Shown in pieces: positions 6,017-54,368 of a DNA stretch of 64,000 nt. The stretch comes from Coriobacteriales bacterium OH1046 (lineage in GTDB: Bacteria; Actinomycetota; Coriobacteriia; Coriobacteriales; Atopobiaceae). The notes beneath the pieces are model-generated. The model searched no databases, had not been told where the DNA came from, and saw only the letters and a program-made list of their open reading frames with translations. How positions within the stretch are numbered: the first letter of the stretch is position 1; every line of letters starts with the position of its first letter. The stretch lies in contig RQYE01000005.1 in NCBI GenBank assembly GCA_004010535.1, forward strand, positions 1-64,000, read 5' to 3'. The translations under genes and the position numbers were made by a program.

Positions 6017-6135
6017 GGCAACACCCCCAAGCCGTGCATGCAGCCTCATATCGGGAACCGGACCCGCTCCTATCCTACCAGCGACTGCGGCAAAAAGCCG
6101 CGACGAGGGAATGCGTGACGTGCCGTGACAGGGGT

Positions 6136-6230
6136 GCCGTGACAGGGGGACAGGTCATTTGTCACGCCTCTTGCAGCCGCTGTGGTATGGGAGGATCCGC
6201 GTGACAAATGACCTGTCCCCCTGTCACGGC
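6136..6230. repeat. REP-like perfect 32-bp inverted repeat, copy 1
   Basis: Bases 6136-6167 and 6199-6230 are exact reverse complements over 32 positions. The core GTGACAGGGGGACAGGTC is followed by ATTTGTCACGC. The loop is 31 bases. A partial third copy of the outer end (GCCGTGACAGGGG) lies just left, at 6122-6134. The element sits in the untranslated leader of the response regulator. A second copy of the same family lies at 44142-44214 inside metH. Confidence 0.9.
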
Positions 6231-6262
6231 ACTCGTCAGAATATCCTGCCACGATCTCGAAA

Positions 6263-15307: not shown

Positions 15308-15507
15308 CCGCTGTCACACGAAATCGTTCCGATGGCGAAATATCGCGGTTTTCAGCCGATTCGGGACATCGGTAAAGATGGGATTACATTTTCATGACTC
15401 TGACCTGTAAAGATAGGGGTGTCCTTTCCACCCGATGACGATTTGGGACTCGAATTCAGCAGAAAACCGCGATATTTCGCCATCAGCGCAAATCCGTGTG
15501 ACAGCGG
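15308..15507. mobile_element. MITE-like 200-bp inverted-repeat element
   Basis: The outer 13 bases (CCGCTGTCACACG, 15308-15320) and an inner 23-base block (15331-15353) are repeated exactly in inverse orientation at 15495-15507 and 15462-15484, separated on each side by 10 diverged bases. The central 80 bases hold no gene but contain two related strings, GGTAAAGATGGG and TGTAAAGATAGGGG. Size, terminal inverted repeats and lack of coding capacity fit a miniature transposable element. No clear target duplication is visible. Confidence 0.55.
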
Positions 15508-28339: not shown

Positions 28340-30102
28340 CAGACCGCCTCCCCGACAAGGCAATCGACCAGCGCCTCCATGGTGAGGGGCTCGGCCTGAA
28401 GGCCCAGCGCCATAGCCCAGCGCAGCGCCGTGGGCAGGCCGAGGCCGGTATCGCGGAGGACGTTCTCGTAAGCGGGGGCGAAGACCTCCTCGGGCGTGCC
28501 CCGCATGAGCACGCGGGCCTCGGAGAGCACGATGACCTGCTCGGCACGGGCGGCGGCGTCGATGGAATGCGTCACGCGGACGATGGTCGTCCCACTCCTG
28601 CGGATATCGTCGAGGATACGCTCGATCTGCTCGCGCCCGCGCGGGTCGAGGCCTGCGGTGGGCTCGTCGAGCACGAGGATGCCGGGCTGCATCGCCAGCA
28701 CCCCTGCGATAGCGCAGAGGCGCTGCTGGCCGCCGGAGAGCCGGAAGGGAGAGGCGTCCTCCCTGCCCTCAAGGCCCACGAGCTTGAGCGCGCGGGCGCA
28801 GCGCTCCTGCACCTCATCGTCGGAAAGCCCCCTGTTGGCCGGCCCATAGGCCACGTCCTCGAGCACCGTCTCGGCAAAGAGCTGCCGCTCGGGATGCTGC
28901 ATGACATAGCCCACCGCCCCGTGAAGCCTGCGACGGTCGCGCTTGCCGGAGGTATCGATCCCGTTGACCACGATACGTCCCCGGTCGGGTGCCTCGAGCG
29001 CGCAGAGCAGGCGGACAAGCGTCGATTTGCCCGAGCCGGTCTGGCCGATGAGGGCGACCGACGCCCCGCGCGCCACATCGAACGACACGTCCTCGAGCGC
29101 CCTGCGCCCATCCGCGCCATGATAGGAATACGAGACGCGATCGACGCGTGCGGCGGCGTCGCCGCAGTGGCTGGTAGCGGGTGCGCGGGGCCCTCCCCCA
29201 GCGGCGGCCGCCCGCGCCGCAAGAGGCGCGAGCGCAGCGCGCAGCTCGCCCTCATCGCAGGTCCACGGCACGCAGGCATCGCGCTCGCGGAGCGCACGGG
29301 CGAGACGCGCCGTGAAGGGCAGCTCGAGGCCGCGTGCCGCAAGTTCGTCGCCCTGCGAGAAGACCTGCTCGGGCGCACCGTCAAGGACCACGCGACCGCA
29401 GTCCATCACGATCACGCGGTCGGCGGCGAGGCCCTCGTCCACGAAGTGCGTGATGTGGATGACGGTAGTGCCCGCCTCCTTGAGCTGCTCCATCACGCGC
29501 ATGATGCCGCAGCGCCCGCGCACATCGAGCAGGGCGCCCGGCTCATCGAGGACGAGCACGCGCGGCTCCATGGCCATGGCGCCGGCGATGGCGACGAGCT
29601 GGCGCTGACCGCCGGAGAGGCGCGCGGGGTCGGAGCGGGCATAGCCGCTCATCGCAACGCGCCCGAGCTCGCGGGCGACGCGGATGCCGATCTCCTCCGA
29701 CGGAAGCCCGAGATTCTCGGGACCGAAGGCCACGTCCTCCTCGACTATCGAGGTGACGATCTGGTCCTCGGGATTCTGGAACACCAAGCCGATCCGGCGG
29801 CGCGCGCGCCGGTAGGCATTGAGATCGGCGCCGTTCGGCCCCATGGCCCGCTCGCCCGCAAGCACGACCTCGCCCTCGTCGGGCGCGAGCAGGCCGCAGA
29901 TGACCGACGCCAGCGTGGACTTGCCCGAACCGTTGGCGCCGAGGATGCAGATGCGCTCGCCGCTGCGCACGCGAAGCGTCACGTCATCGAGCGCCGTGAC
30001 CGCGCCCGGCCCGCTGCCGTAGCACAGCGTCACATGGCGGAGGGACACGGCGTCTTCCGCCGCAGCCTCCCTAGAAGCCGACCTGTTATCCGGACTGGGC
30101 AC
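28339..30102 (-). CDS. Fused EcfA-EcfA' ATPase of an ECF transporter
   Basis: The 587-residue protein has two complete ABC cassettes: Walker A GANGSGKST, Q-loop FQNPEDQI, signature LSGGQRQ, Walker B VLVLDEP in the first half, and GQTGSGKST, MQHPERQL, LSGGQQR, ILVLDEPTAGLD in the second. The first half has Gly-Ala (LDEPGALLD) where Thr-Ala/Ser-Gly is usual. The GTG start shares one G with the ribU stop (TAGTG), so translation is coupled. A frame open much further upstream is an antisense-like artefact over ribU. The tandem fusion replaces the usual separate EcfA1 and EcfA2. Confidence 0.92.
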   Translation of the reverse strand: MPSPDNRSASREAAAEDAVSLRHVTLCYGSGPGAVTALDDVTLRVRSGERICILGANGSGKSTLASVICGLLAPDEGEVVLAGERAMGPNGADLNAYRRARRRIGLVFQNPEDQIVTSIVEEDVAFGPENLGLPSEEIGIRVARELGRVAMSGYARSDPARLSGGQRQLVAIAGAMAMEPRVLVLDEPGALLDVRGRCGIMRVMEQLKEAGTTVIHITHFVDEGLAADRVIVMDCGRVVLDGAPEQVFSQGDELAARGLELPFTARLARALRERDACVPWTCDEGELRAALAPLAARAAAAGGGPRAPATSHCGDAAARVDRVSYSYHGADGRRALEDVSFDVARGASVALIGQTGSGKSTLVRLLCALEAPDRGRIVVNGIDTSGKRDRRRLHGAVGYVMQHPERQLFAETVLEDVAYGPANRGLSDDEVQERCARALKLVGLEGREDASPFRLSGGQQRLCAIAGVLAMQPGILVLDEPTAGLDPRGREQIERILDDIRRSGTTIVRVTHSIDAAARAEQVIVLSEARVLMRGTPEEVFAPAYENVLRDTGLGLPTALRWAMALGLQAEPLTMEALVDCLVGEAV

Positions 30103-30683
30103 TAGTTTTCGAGCGCCTTGGAGACGGGCTTGTAGACAAGGGCTGCAACCACGCAGTTGATGATGATCTTGAACAGGTTGAACGGCAGGAGGATGGGCAC
30201 GATCATCTCGATGACCGCCTCGCGCGGGGCGCCCATGTAGATGGGCGTCACCACGATGTTGGCAAGGATGCAGCACGCAAGGCAGACGACGGCACCCACC
30301 GCGAGGCCCATGACGGCCCCGCGGATGGTGGCATCCCGCCGGTGGACGATCGAGGCGGGAAGCACGAGCGAGAGCGTGGCGATGATGGCCATGACCGTGC
30401 CGTATATCCCGCTCTGGGTGGCGATGTGCACGAGGTTGGGAAGGATCGAGACGACGGCCCCGGTAGCCGGCCCAAATGCGAAGCCTGCGATCAGCGCCGG
30501 GATGGCGGACGGATCGTATTTGAGGAAGGTCACGCCCGGCAGGATGGGGAACTCGATGAAGAGCGTGCAGATGGTGGCCACCGCGCAGAAAAGCGCCGTG
30601 ATGGCGATGCGCTTGGTCGACCATCCACCTACCGCGGCGGTGGTGGAATGAGTATCGTGACGTGCGTCGGGATGAGCGGCCAT
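30102..30683 (-). CDS. ribU: Riboflavin ECF transporter S component
   Basis: The 193-residue protein has six membrane segments. Its N-terminal helix (TKRIAITALFCAVATICTL) and the loop FLKYDPSAIPALIAGFAFGP are typical of RibU. The FMN riboswitch immediately upstream confirms the vitamin. The start at 30683 follows GGAGG by eight bases; longer frames run through the riboswitch. Confidence 0.94.
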   Translation of the reverse strand: MAAHPDARHDTHSTTAAVGGWSTKRIAITALFCAVATICTLFIEFPILPGVTFLKYDPSAIPALIAGFAFGPATGAVVSILPNLVHIATQSGIYGTVMAIIATLSLVLPASIVHRRDATIRGAVMGLAVGAVVCLACCILANIVVTPIYMGAPREAVIEMIVPILLPFNLFKIIINCVVAALVYKPVSKALEN

Positions 30684-30698
30684 GATGGCGTCCTCCGT

Positions 30699-30820
30699 TT
30701 CTTCCATCCGGACTGTAACCGTTGGCCCTGGATTCTCACCAGATCGACCGCTCGTGCGGCTCGCGGGCTCCGGGTCCCGCCCGTCACCGCCAGTGGGGAA
30801 TCGCACCCCGCCCTGAAACT
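30699..30820 (-). ncRNA. FMN riboswitch (RFN element) controlling ribU
   Basis: Minus-strand RNA containing GGGCGGGGTGCGATTCCCC, CTGGCGGTGACGGGC, GTGAGAATCCAGG, CCAACGGTTACAGTCCGGAT, all conserved FMN aptamer blocks in the right order. P1 appears to be GTTTC (30816-30820) with GAAAC (30697-30701). The ribU Shine-Dalgarno GGAGG (30692-30696) follows after one base, leaving no room for a terminator, so control of translation is likely. Confidence 0.96.
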
Positions 30821-30832
30821 GCATGCGGATAG

Positions 30833-42570: not shown

Positions 42571-45090
42571 TTATCCCAGGATCTCTCGGGCGATCTTCGC
42601 GCTTTCGGTGGCGTCCTTGGCGTAGTAATCGGCTCCCACCATCTGCGCGTATTCGGGGTTGAGCACCGCCCCGCCCACCATCACCTTCGCAGCAGGCGCC
42701 TGCTTGCGCAAAAGCCTGATGGTATCGGCCATGCCCGCAACCGTCGTGGTCATGAGCGCGGAGAGGCCCACGAGACGGGCATCGTGGGCGAGCACCGCAT
42801 CGACGACCGCCTGCGGATCGACATCGCGACCGAGATCGATCACATCGAAGCCATAGTTCTCGAGCAGCATACGCACGATGTTCTTGCCGATATCGTGGAT
42901 GTCGCCACGCACCGTGCAGAGCACGATCTTGCCTTTGTCCGCAGGGACGGGCGCGGAGCCGCCGCGGGCGCGGAGCACCTCGAAACCCGCTTTGGCCGCC
43001 TCGGCCGAGGCCATGAGCTGCGGCAGGAAGAAGGCGCCTCGCTCGAAACGCTCCCCCACCTCGTCGAGCGCGGGTATCAGGACCTCGTTGATGACCGAGA
43101 GGGTATCGGAACCGTTCTCCAACAGCTCCTCGACCTGCTGCGGCACAGGATCCTTGCGGCCGGAGAGGATGGCCGCGTGGATGCGCTGCTCGATGGTCTG
43201 ATCTTCATGGGCGGGGTATCCCGCAGCAGCGTTCTCTGCAACGCGGATGCTCGGCGACGATTCCGGCGCGGCAACCGCCGCCGCATCCGGGCGGTTCGCA
43301 TACTCTGCCACGAATTCCTGCGCGGACGCGTCCTCGCCCGAGAGCACGCGCCACGAGTTGACGACGTCCATCATGCGCGGATCGAGCGGATTGATGATCG
43401 CCAGATCCAAGCCCGCCGCGAAAGCCGCCGCGAGGAACGTGGCATTCACGAGGGGGCGGAACGGCAGTCCGAAGCTGATATTGGAGACGCCGAGCACCGT
43501 GCGCACGCCCGGCAGATCGCGTTTGACGAGCGCGATACCGTCGAGGATGGCGCGCGGGGCGCTCTGATCGGTGGAGGCCGCCATGGTGAGGCAGTCGATG
43601 GCGATGTCGCAGCGGGGGATGCCGAGCTTTTCGGCGGCCCCGACGATGCGCCGCGCGATGGCGAGACGGCCCTGGGCGTCTTGGGGGATGCCCTGCTCGT
43701 CGAGGGTGAGCCCTACGACGGCGCAGCCGTAATGGGCGGCAAGCGGCAGCACCGCGTCGAGCACCTCCCGCTTGCCGTTGCAGGAGTTGATGAGGGCCTT
43801 GCCGGGGTAGCTGCGCACGGCGGCCTCGATCACGGCGGGGTCTGCGGAGTCGATCTGCAGGGGCAGCGTGGTCACCCCGGAGAGCTCCGTGCATAGACGG
43901 AGCATCGTCCGGCGCTCGTCGATCTCGGGAAGGCCCGCGTTGACGTCGAGGATCTGCGCCCCCGCCTCGGCCTGCTTGATGGCCTCGCCCATGACATAGT
44001 CGAGCTCGCCCGCGCGCAGCGCCTCCTTCAAGCGCTTCTTGCCGGTGGGATTGATGCGCTCGCCGATGACCCCCACGGAACCCGGCGCGAGGGCGACGTG
44101 GCTCTGGGCGCTCGTCACCGTGAACACGTCACCGGCGTGACGGGCGTGACGGGGGGACAGGTCGCTTGTCACGCTGTCAAAGCGTGACAAGCGACCTGTC
44201 CCCCCGTCACGCCCCCTGTCGCAAAGCAGGCGCCTCTCGGCGGCCGTGTAGGCGGGATCCGTGCCGCAGCATCCGCCGATGATCGTGACGCCGGCATCGA
44301 CCATCTCGGCAACGGCCGCGACATAGGCATCGGGACCGATATCGTAGGCGGTCGCGCCGTCCTCCACGCGCGGGAGGCCGGCATTGGCCTGCACCATCAC
44401 CGGGCAGTCCGCATACGGGATCATGCGCTTGGCAAGGGGAACCAGCGCTGCGGGCCCCAAACTGCAATTGATGCCGAGCGCATCGACGCCGAGAGCCGAG
44501 AGCGTGATGGCGGCGACCTCGGGCGTGGTGCCCAAGAAGGTGCGCCCATCCTCGGCGAAGGTCATCGTGCAGAAGATGGGCAGATCGGAGTTCTCCTTCG
44601 CGGCGAGCACGGCGGCCTTGGCCTCGGCGAGATCTGCCATGGTCTCGATGATGAGCAGATCCGCACCGGCGGCATCGGCAGCTCTGACCTGCTCGGCGAA
44701 GAGCGTGTAGGCCTCGTCGAACGAGCAGGTCCCCAAGGGCGCCAGGAGCTGCCCGGTGGGTCCGATATCTGCTGCCACGTATGCGGCCCCGCTCGCCTTG
44801 GCGCAGGCGATGGCCGCAGAGAAGACCTGCTCGACCGTGGCGGCATCGCCCAGCTTGGCGGCATTGGCGCCGAAGGTGTTCGTGGTCACGGCATCCGCAC
44901 CGGCAGCGACGTAGGCCCCATGGATCGCGCGGATCCCATCGGGATCCGTGAGGCACAGGAGCTCCGGCAGCTCGCCTGCGGCAAGGCCGCGGGCTTGGAG
45001 CTGGGTCCCCATGGCGCCATCGAAGAGCAGACACTCCTCTTGTGCGAGCACGGCGGCGAGGCGGGCGTCTTTCACGCGGAGGTTGCGCAT
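42571..45090 (-). CDS. metH: Cobalamin-dependent methionine synthase lacking the activation domain
   Basis: The 839-residue protein has a homocysteine-binding domain (about 15-285; zinc ligands in GINCSLGP and GGCCGTDP), a pterin/methyltetrahydrofolate domain (about 325-600; VIGERINPTGKKRLKEAL, DVNAGLPEID, GVSNISFGLP), a cap and a cobalamin domain (about 640-839) with the B12 ligand motif DIHDIGKN. The C-terminal AdoMet activation domain is missing; it is supplied by the adjacent gene at 45105. The linker (about residues 293-316) is encoded by a REP-like palindrome and has a sequence unlike its surroundings (RDGGTGRLSRFDSVTSD). It is third in an operon after metF. Confidence 0.95.
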   Translation of the reverse strand: MRNLRVKDARLAAVLAQEECLLFDGAMGTQLQARGLAAGELPELLCLTDPDGIRAIHGAYVAAGADAVTTNTFGANAAKLGDAATVEQVFSAAIACAKASGAAYVAADIGPTGQLLAPLGTCSFDEAYTLFAEQVRAADAAGADLLIIETMADLAEAKAAVLAAKENSDLPIFCTMTFAEDGRTFLGTTPEVAAITLSALGVDALGINCSLGPAALVPLAKRMIPYADCPVMVQANAGLPRVEDGATAYDIGPDAYVAAVAEMVDAGVTIIGGCCGTDPAYTAAERRLLCDRGRDGGTGRLSRFDSVTSDLSPRHARHAGDVFTVTSAQSHVALAPGSVGVIGERINPTGKKRLKEALRAGELDYVMGEAIKQAEAGAQILDVNAGLPEIDERRTMLRLCTELSGVTTLPLQIDSADPAVIEAAVRSYPGKALINSCNGKREVLDAVLPLAAHYGCAVVGLTLDEQGIPQDAQGRLAIARRIVGAAEKLGIPRCDIAIDCLTMAASTDQSAPRAILDGIALVKRDLPGVRTVLGVSNISFGLPFRPLVNATFLAAAFAAGLDLAIINPLDPRMMDVVNSWRVLSGEDASAQEFVAEYANRPDAAAVAAPESSPSIRVAENAAAGYPAHEDQTIEQRIHAAILSGRKDPVPQQVEELLENGSDTLSVINEVLIPALDEVGERFERGAFFLPQLMASAEAAKAGFEVLRARGGSAPVPADKGKIVLCTVRGDIHDIGKNIVRMLLENYGFDVIDLGRDVDPQAVVDAVLAHDARLVGLSALMTTTVAGMADTIRLLRKQAPAAKVMVGGAVLNPEYAQMVGADYYAKDATESAKIAREILG
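44142..44214. repeat. REP-like perfect 34-bp inverted repeat, copy 2, inside metH
   Basis: Bases 44142-44175 and 44181-44214 are exact reverse complements with a five-base loop. The core GTGACGGGGGGACAGGTC and TTGTCACGC match copy 1 at 6136-6230 closely. The insertion keeps the metH frame open and lies in the linker between homocysteine and pterin domains. Confidence 0.92.
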
Positions 45091-45104: not shown

Positions 45105-45773
45105 CTACGCAAGCGAACCCGACATGAGCTCGGAGCGGCGGGCTGCACGGGAGGTCTCGAAGATCCCCATGACGGCGGTGATGCTCTTCGTGGGCACCAT
45201 GAGGAGCGTGTCGGTGAGGGCGATGCCCAAGCGACGCTGGGCATCCACGCTGGCAAGCAGGACGGGCTGCACGGCAAGCGGCAGATCCCCGTATCCCGGC
45301 GAGAAGCGGGCATTGGCATGGAGCCCACGGGCTGCAGCCTCGGCGATGATGCTTTTCTGACAGGCTGCCGCAGCCTCCTCCACGGCAACGCTCGCCGCCG
45401 CATCGAAGATCACGCTCGCCACGCTATCGGTAGCGGAAAGGCGCTTGAGCTCGCGCTCCACATCCATACCCACCGTGACGGCCATGACGGCGCAGGCTAC
45501 GGCACCGTCCATATGCGTCGCGATCGACGAGCCCATGAGGGTGAGCGCCGTACCGGCAAGATGGGTCTCGGATGTGCCGTCATCGCGTGCAGACCGTCCG
45601 GCAACGTCGAAGACCGCCCACGAGGAGCGCGGGTGCGCGAGCTCGAGCACGCGCGCCACGAACCTATCGATGCGCGCATCGATCTCGGATGCGATCTCCT
45701 GCCCGCGATAACCCAGGTAACGCAGCACTGCGCGCCGTGGGAGGGAGGAGAGGCTGTAGCTCTCTATCGGCAT
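45105..45773 (-). CDS. Stand-alone MetH activation-domain-like protein
   Basis: The 222-residue protein begins YSLSSLPRRAVLRYLGYRG, has a middle part with HMDGAVACAVMAVTVGMDVE, and ends with RFSPGYGDLPLAVQPVLLASVDAQRRLGIALTDTLLMVPTKSITAVMG. R-x-S-P-G-Y-G-D-x-P and the SITAVMG ending are the signature of the AdoMet-dependent reactivation domain of MetH. It is expected to re-methylate cob(II)alamin for the truncated MetH. It lies one base after metF and 14 before metH. The start is chosen at the ATG after the metF stop. Confidence 0.88.
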   Translation of the reverse strand: MPIESYSLSSLPRRAVLRYLGYRGQEIASEIDARIDRFVARVLELAHPRSSWAVFDVAGRSARDDGTSETHLAGTALTLMGSSIATHMDGAVACAVMAVTVGMDVERELKRLSATDSVASVIFDAAASVAVEEAAAACQKSIIAEAAARGLHANARFSPGYGDLPLAVQPVLLASVDAQRRLGIALTDTLLMVPTKSITAVMGIFETSRAARRSELMSGSLA

Positions 45774-45774
45774 G

Positions 45775-46644
45775 CTAGTCCTCGAGATACCCGCAGGCGA
45801 GCAGGGCATCGTAGGCCGCATCGCCGATCTCGTGCCGGTTCATCGTGTAGATATGGATGCCGTCCACGCCGTTCGCTGCAAGATCGGCGATCTGCTCGAG
45901 GGCGTACTCGAGACCGGCCCTCGCCTGATCGGCAGGGTCATCGCCCGCCGAGACGATACGCTTGATGACGGCCGCGGGAATGGTGGCTCCGCAGGTGAAG
46001 GCCATGCGCTGGATCTGCTTGGCGCTCGTGAACGGCATGATGCCCGCGACGATGGGGATCTTGATGCGATGCCGCGTGCACGCCTCGCGGAAGGTGTAGA
46101 AGAGCTCGTTGTCGAAGAAGAGCTGGGTCACGAAGAAATCGGCCCCCGCCTGCTGCTTGGCATAGAGATGGCGCATGGACAGCTCGAAGTCCTCGCATTC
46201 GACATGGCCCTCGGGATAGCAGGCCGCGCCTATGCAGAACTCGGGTGCGACGTGTTTGATATAGGCGATGAGGTTCGACGCATAGGCGAAATCCGCAACC
46301 TCGCGACCGGGAATGCGATCGCCGCGCAGGGCGAGCACGTTCGAGATGCCCGCTGCCGCGAGCGCCGCGAGATACGCGTCGATATCCGCACGTTCGGAAC
46401 CCATGCAGGTGAGGTGCGCGAGCGGCTCGATCGCGCACCTCTTCAGCAGCTCGCCCGCAACGGCCAGCGTATTGGCGCTGTTACCGCTGCCGCCTGCTGA
46501 GAATGTGACGGAGATCCAGTCGGGCTTATCGGCGGCGAGGGCACCGGCCACAGCGAGCGCCTGATCGATGGGCAAGTCGCCTTTGGGCGGGAAGATCTCG
46601 AACGAGAAGGTCTGCTTGGCGGCGAGGCGTTCGCTGATACGCAT
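45775..46644 (-). CDS. metF: 5,10-methylenetetrahydrofolate reductase
   Basis: The 289-residue flavoprotein has SFEIFPPKGD near the start, LAHLTCMGSERADI, NVLALRGDRIPG, IGAACYPEGH and DFFVTQLFFDNELF, all MetF signatures. It makes 5-methyl-THF for MetH. The start follows GTAAGGAGC. It leads the metF-activation-metH operon. No SAM or cobalamin riboswitch is seen in the 77 bases upstream. Confidence 0.95.
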   Translation of the reverse strand: MRISERLAAKQTFSFEIFPPKGDLPIDQALAVAGALAADKPDWISVTFSAGGSGNSANTLAVAGELLKRCAIEPLAHLTCMGSERADIDAYLAALAAAGISNVLALRGDRIPGREVADFAYASNLIAYIKHVAPEFCIGAACYPEGHVECEDFELSMRHLYAKQQAGADFFVTQLFFDNELFYTFREACTRHRIKIPIVAGIMPFTSAKQIQRMAFTCGATIPAAVIKRIVSAGDDPADQARAGLEYALEQIADLAANGVDGIHIYTMNRHEIGDAAYDALLACGYLED

Positions 46645-53510: not shown

Positions 53511-54368
53511 TCATCCTCCGATTTCCGACATGATGCGCAGGGAGCGGCTGCCTGCATCTGCAAGCGTATGGGCCTTCGGCTTGGCGAGGATCCCCGCACG
53601 CACTGCCTCGACGAGCTCGACGCCGGAAAGCCCCCTCAAGGATAGCTCCTCGCCTGAATGCAGGCAGGGCTTGAGATAACCGTCGGCGGTCACGCGGATG
53701 CGGTTGCATGTCGAGCAGAACGGCCGCGAGATCGGGGCGATGACGTGTCCTTTCGCCGTGCCTGCGGGCACGAAGCGCTCGCGCGGCCAATCGGCGCACA
53801 CGCCGAGGGGCATGAGCTCGATGAAACGGACCTCCACGCCCTGCTCGGCGGCAAAGGAGTCGAACGCATCCACCTCGCCATCGTTCACACCGCCTATGAG
53901 CACGCAGTTCACCTTGGTGTTCTCGAAGCCCGCAGCTTTGCAGGCGGCAAGGCCGGCAAGGGCATCGTCGAGCGAGCCGCCGCGGGTGATCGCACGATAG
54001 CGCTCGGGTATAAGCGAATCGATGCTGATGTTCACACGGGAGAGCCCCATCGCACGGAGCTCCCCCGCCATCGGCGCGAGAAGCGTGCCGTTGGTGGTGA
54101 GGCAGACCTCCTCGATGCCGGAAGTCGCCGCGATCTTACCGACGAGCTCGGGAAGATCACCCCGGATGCAGGGTTCGCCTCCCGTTATACGCACCTTCGT
54201 GATGCCGACCTCCGCAGCCGCCTCGACGATCTCGGCAGGCGATGGAGCGCGGCAGGGGGACGGGCAGCTTACCTCGCCGGCAGGGCGGCAGTAGATGCAA
54301 CGCAGGTTGCAACCGCCCGTCACCGAGAGCCTCAGGTAGTCGATCCTGCGTCCGAAGCTATCGCGCAT
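53511..54368 (-). CDS. moaA: GTP 3',8-cyclase MoaA (short form)
   Basis: The 285-residue radical SAM protein has the N-terminal cluster motif CNLRCIYC, the GGEPC segment, and the C-terminal second-cluster motif CSTC-x13-C. It ends in Gly-Gly, required for activity. It is about 40 residues shorter than typical MoaA; the shortness is mainly around residues 35-45 and 205-225. The start overlaps modC by 11 bases. Confidence 0.92.
   Translation of the reverse strand: MRDSFGRRIDYLRLSVTGGCNLRCIYCRPAGEVSCPSPCRAPSPAEIVEAAAEVGITKVRITGGEPCIRGDLPELVGKIAATSGIEEVCLTTNGTLLAPMAGELRAMGLSRVNISIDSLIPERYRAITRGGSLDDALAGLAACKAAGFENTKVNCVLIGGVNDGEVDAFDSFAAEQGVEVRFIELMPLGVCADWPRERFVPAGTAKGHVIAPISRPFCSTCNRIRVTADGYLKPCLHSGEELSLRGLSGVELVEAVRAGILAKPKAHTLADAGSRSLRIMSEIGG

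Follow-up and report, generated by a model that had tools for sequence, protein, structure and literature searches.

In-frame palindromic repeats

REPINs and RAYTs are established in Pseudomonas fluorescens SBW25, where, of 1067 of the most abundant 16-mers, only 14 overlap a gene (PMC3116915). Palindromic repeats that are translated as part of a protein are also known: a 2013 survey covered intragenic REPs encoding 20–30 residues in Opitutus terrae, Rickettsia conorii and further hosts (PMC3733652), and Rickettsia offers the classic examples of in-frame palindromes (see the review PMC10969869).

Here we describe a REPIN that lies in frame within a metH-like gene of Coriobacteriales bacterium OH1046 (G000 below), an Atopobiaceae-related member of the Coriobacteriales which we take to be a gut actinobacterium. 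Its genome is a 2.38-Mb draft in 19 contigs, and the window referred to throughout is the stretch of 64,000 nt of contig RQYE01000005.1 that was analysed. In common with SBW25, G000 has short REPs with palindromic cores, inverted pairs separated by a spacer, dispersed copies and matching repeats beside a RAYT-type gene (PMC3116915), but it is an actinobacterium and has fewer copies; against the SBW25 figure above, two of about 55 loci are wholly intragenic in G000, with more in its congeners. The intragenic GTAG/CGTC REPs likewise form dimers within ORFs and add 20–30 residues in frame (PMC3733652), whereas the G000 unit is untagged, its host genes code for metabolic enzymes, and congeners that carry different REP families have insertions in the same linkers. 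The likeness to the Rickettsia elements (RPEs) is one of behaviour: in both cases a mobile palindrome is translated in frame as part of unrelated proteins that are presumably functional (PMC10969869). RPEs, however, measure about 150 bp, and almost half of the first ones described were intragenic; the G000 elements measure about 70 bp, are linked to a RAYT and lie mostly between genes.

Whilst there is thus precedent for intragenic REPs and for the in-frame palindromes of Rickettsia, a REPIN system in the Coriobacteriales, and the RAYT-linked turnover that the sequences suggest at linkers common to congeners, are new as far as our searches show; the literature search turned up no paper on REPINs in Coriobacteria. 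We favour, at a probability of roughly 80%, a reading in which the metH element is a REPIN of one RAYT-maintained population, tolerated in frame in a disordered linker at a site older than the species split, the present copy having probably been rewritten. Intragenic REPs are usually taken as rare accidents. Here a few intragenic sites are common to congeners with different RAYT/REP families, making it possible to test random REPIN insertion against preference for existing REP hairpins and against persistence by overwriting. Selfish DNA of this kind would offer a simple route to longer linkers in conserved enzymes outside Rickettsia.

A REPIN in the metH interdomain linker

The metH element comprises two inverted copies of CGTGACRRGGGGACAGGTCRYTTGTCACGC, and its arms are complementary at 34 of 34 positions (100%), as in the original prediction (Table 1). 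Pfam places S-methyl_trans (PF02574) at residues 21–284 and Pterin_bind (PF00809) at 343–567, so that the residues encoded by the REPIN sit in the linker that joins the homocysteine domain to the folate domain, again in agreement with that prediction. B12-binding_2 (PF02607, 634–706) and B12-binding (PF02310, 720–828) are also present, giving the homocysteine, folate and two B12-binding domains by which we identify MetH. About 24 residues had been expected to be added without a stop. The frame is indeed open and the repeat itself is 73 nt long, or about 24 codons; in net terms, however, the linker is only 60 nt (20 codons) longer than is usual in the family and 51 nt (17 codons) longer than in the sister species.

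Table 1. Positions in the window of the metH REPIN, its component units, its host gene and the second REPIN
Feature	Position	Strand	Remarks
REPIN in metH, perfect inverted repeat	44142–44214	.	arms 44142–44175 and 44181–44214, 5-nt spacer
First REP unit, CGTGACGGGGGGACAGGTCGCTTGTCACGC	44145–44174	+	30-nt REP model R1, E 6.2e-9
Second REP unit, inverted, same sequence as first	44182–44211	-	30-nt REP model R1, E 6.2e-9
metH-like methionine synthase, 839 aa	42571–45090	-	ORF open across REPIN; REPIN codes residues 293–317
Second REPIN, same family, intergenic	6134–6232	.	between response-regulator gene and RsgA-like gene; perfect 34-nt arms

An AlphaFold2 model of MetH, built from a 33-sequence alignment, has a mean pLDDT of 86. 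The flanking domains are mostly above 90 and residues 294–318 fall below 50, thus the insert looks like a disordered extension of the linker; on this model it would amount to a longer flexible linker and be close to neutral. The protein lacks an activation domain. Two ORFs lie just upstream on the same strand (45105–45821 and 45775–46644), namely a B12-synthase activation-domain ORF, matched at 27.0 bits against a cut-off of 25, and a metF-like ORF, and with these the locus would appear to encode a methionine synthase that is split but functional.

The RNA fold of the hairpin is very stable (z = -8.9), raising the question of whether it is kept for a role in metH mRNA, for example by delaying ribosomes as they pass from one domain to the next or by offering RNase III a place to cut. 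RNase III cutting has been reported for other palindromic repeats (PMC10969869), and the arms are perfectly matched even though about 11% of the residues encoded by the gene have diverged from the sister. The hairpin is, however, absent from most relatives and effectively from the sister as well, and the intergenic copies of the family are just as perfect, making symmetry a property of the family; we consider an mRNA role unlikely. At the metH site Rfam finds no known RNA, and the metH segment, searched against phages, gave no more than two partial matches, both outside the insert. The sole Rfam match in the window, on the minus strand at 30692–30824, is an FMN riboswitch that precedes the gene called at 30102–30707.

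The REP family and its RAYT

When up to two mismatches are allowed, GGGGACAGGTCNNTTGTCACG occurs at 94 half-sites in G000 and the reversed control at none, which together with the RNA fold excludes chance. A 30-nt sequence model yields 110 matches, nearly all at GGGGACAGGTCNNTTGTCACG loci, indicating a homogeneous family with few decayed copies. These results bear on the most sceptical reading, that the element has no biological meaning, being an assembly artefact, a damaged gene or a chance palindrome in an otherwise ordinary linker. Long perfect palindromes can be misassembled, and this genome is a draft, but the metH ORF is intact and aligns end to end with that of the sister at 87–89% identity, both flanks match the orthologue and the genome-wide family rules out chance. 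We therefore give this reading hardly any weight.

The REP unit is 30 nt long with an imperfect palindromic core, GTGACA...TGTCAC, and its consensus lacks a GTAG or CGTC end tag. Most of the loci in G000 are intergenic; according to gene calls made around the REP sites with a codon-usage model built for this analysis, the two wholly intragenic ones are those in metH and in a U32-peptidase gene. In a few further genes the frame ends within a repeat: the RAYT gene, a TlyA/FtsJ-like gene (C1:454015–454788) and the gene for a FAD-dependent protein (C12:64234–65910). Inverted pairs (REPINs) are found at 30 loci, 25 of them with identical 21-nt arms. Dealing the right arms at random gave about 9 identical pairs and never more than 16, implying that variants are common to both arms of an element. 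The family thus shows the structural features that define REPINs, namely a unit with a palindromic core, inverted pairs with a spacer, dispersal mainly outside genes (to which the metH copy is an exception) and REPs flanking a RAYT gene.

The second REPIN in the window, first reported at 6136–6230, is a genuine member of the family, with the limits given in Table 1 and an extra 14-nt half repeat adjoining it at 6120–6133. At two other REPINs, G000:C1:453990–454042 (L084) and G000:C16:5105–5157 (L104), perfect symmetry continues into the non-REP flank, as if the element lay within an older hairpin or the flank had been copied inverted on insertion. Elsewhere in the window, between two convergent genes at 15308–15507, there is a 52-nt inverted repeat (85% complementary, 96-nt spacer) that is unlike any REP unit seen here and possibly represents another repeat family.

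The original prediction also raised the possibility of a Y1-type (RAYT) transposase elsewhere in the genome, and one strong candidate was found. Pfam Y1_Tnp has a single match in G000, a 256-aa protein encoded at C12:120296–121066 (53.0 bits against a cut-off of 23) with an HUH-type HFH motif in GNHFHLLIR. The gene lies between two REPs, C12:120287(+) and 121173(-), and its last residues, R-D-K, and TGA stop codon fall inside the adjoining REP (L031 1081–1101). In the sister species (G001) the RAYT gene likewise overlaps a REP, by 12 nt (L135; G001:C112:8806–8826). The only NCBIfam match of the C12 protein is to NF047646 (REP_Tyr_transpos), at 54.6 bits against a curated cut-off of 80; a search of the PDB by sequence found no RAYT relative, and a weaker protein similarity is present at C1:61103.

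Among 60 genomes compared, G000 included and some of them incomplete drafts, G001, with 34 half-sites, is the sole other genome in which the family is numerous and the only one with a 95%-identical RAYT. A congener, G002, has its own REP variant around its own 54%-identical RAYT. It is most likely, judging from this co-distribution and from the near-identical copies, that the G000 population is copied and maintained by the single strong RAYT on C12, and we infer from the same evidence that REPINs are transposed by it.

History of the metH site

Measured between the same query boundaries in every genome, the homocysteine–folate linker is 111 nt long in most relatives but 171 nt in G000, 120 nt in G001, 180 nt in G002 and 162 nt in G003, all the lengths within the genus being multiples of three. 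A long stem is present in G000 alone, the longest elsewhere being 12. The G001 linker contains AGCGAGCTGTCCCCTTG, which matches 16 of 17 bases of the REP arm, the best among the linkers compared and a score reached by none of 2000 shuffles. This is a decayed REP in a frame that is still open, pointing to occupation of the site in the common ancestor unless two insertions struck one linker; the metH site thus probably held a REP before G000 and its sister split. The G002 linker carries a single REP of that genome's other family, GGGGACGGTTCC (C53:167–188).

Had every relative carried the insert and no other copies existed, an ordinary linker would have been indicated; instead, most linkers are short and the repeat is found genome-wide. 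Alignment with related metH genes was expected to reveal an empty site and does so in that most relatives lack the insert, but the sister's linker, with its REP remnant, had to be discarded as a clean example. The view that the insert belongs to a mobile REP family is supported, but the G001 remnant makes the site older than a simple new insertion would be.

A likely relative of the present copy lies at C1:371973, between iorB-like and paaK-like genes (named from a reading of the proteins). Both this REPIN and that in metH have the unusual CGTGACGG arms, and their 9-nt loops are identical though oppositely oriented; a single paired A/G change separates the two elements. The identity of loop and arms suggests that the metH copy was probably rewritten from the C1:371973 REPIN or from a common source. 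The orthologous site in G001 also has degenerate REPs, so that both sites look old in G001 and fresh in G000. More widely, at least 19 of the 55 REP loci have both flanks matching REP-bearing stretches of G001. The loops are the same, with a matched change in both arms, at C1:426616 and G001:C15:14824, but differ between C12:213516 and G001:C87:6860, a mixture that makes rewriting of REPINs, or correction of their arms, plausible.

On our favoured reading, the element is a REPIN, a non-autonomous hairpin built from an inverted pair of REP units, most likely copied by a RAYT-type (HUH/Y1) transposase and able to land in many places. Intragenic copies would survive only where the frame stays open and the protein tolerates the 20–30 encoded residues, which in metH means the disordered stretch that links the homocysteine domain to the folate domain. 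This site would have been occupied by a REP before the split from the sister and then overwritten by the present perfect copy.

In-frame REPs in other genes of the genus

The insertion in metH was originally presented as unusual. Insertions into coding regions are rare in REP families generally, but they recur in this genus and are known elsewhere (PMC3733652, PMC10969869), and metH is not a singular case even in G000. The second in-frame REPIN is a 52-bp perfect stem at G000:C1:536061–536112 (L113), in a U32-peptidase/TrhP-like gene of 835 codons (G000:C1:535235–537739). In relatives, the same linker carries a REPIN of the G002 variant in G002 and a GGGGACGGTTCC-family repeat in G003, the insert being in frame in all three genomes, and in G001 it contains nothing recognisable as a REP. 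In moaA, the GGGGACGGTTCC family is present in frame in G002 and G003, with the right arm and its flank (GGAACCGTCCCCAATTGCAGGTCATCGCGCC) in common, and G004 has its own repeat, GGGACAGTAACCGGACAGG, also in frame and with five further copies in that genome; at this place G000 moaA (window 53514–54368) has no insert. In a gene for a xanthine-dehydrogenase-like fusion, G002 has a REPIN and G003 a single REP of a different kind; further REPs of G002 lie in genes for an L-aspartate-oxidase-like protein and a molybdopterin-dehydrogenase FAD subunit. With the exception of the moaA cases, all the intragenic REPs lie between domains recognised by Pfam. One candidate, G003:C14:109939, was counted as intergenic, the true gene start being apparently downstream.

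The host genes coincide far more often than expected by chance. All three of those in G003 and both of those in G000 are among the six in G002, with probabilities near 1.5e-8 and 7.5e-6, respectively, if about 2000 genes are assumed to be equally likely targets; as linkers differ in tolerance, these values reject randomness but not hot spots. Such sharing suggests either inherited sites with later overwriting by REPs or strong hot spots. The first possibility, that the linkers in metH, the U32 gene, moaA and the xanthine-dehydrogenase-like gene are inherited intragenic REP sites at which the RAYT of each lineage keeps overwriting the resident REP with the frame preserved, is one we advance tentatively, at somewhat below even odds. 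If true, linker peptides in conserved enzymes are being altered all the time as a genomic parasite turns over.

Alternatively, the same accessible or tolerant linkers may have been struck independently in each species, with neither an inherited site nor overwriting. That the REP families at a given linker differ between species, that insertion points are off by a few bases and that inserts are tolerated in linkers would all fit such independent hits. The moaA right arm and flank common to G002 and G003 point instead to one old insertion, and the same-family remnant in G001 metH and the loci that G000 and G001 have in common also argue against independent hits, which we regard as a real possibility but well short of probable. 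As regards the xanthine-dehydrogenase-like linker, a decayed REP is suspected in G000, and in G004 (L303; G004:C91:1501–4308) an in-frame inverted repeat, GGGGAAGCTCTTCCC ... GGGGAGAGCTTCCCC, can be seen by eye and is perhaps a further REP family.
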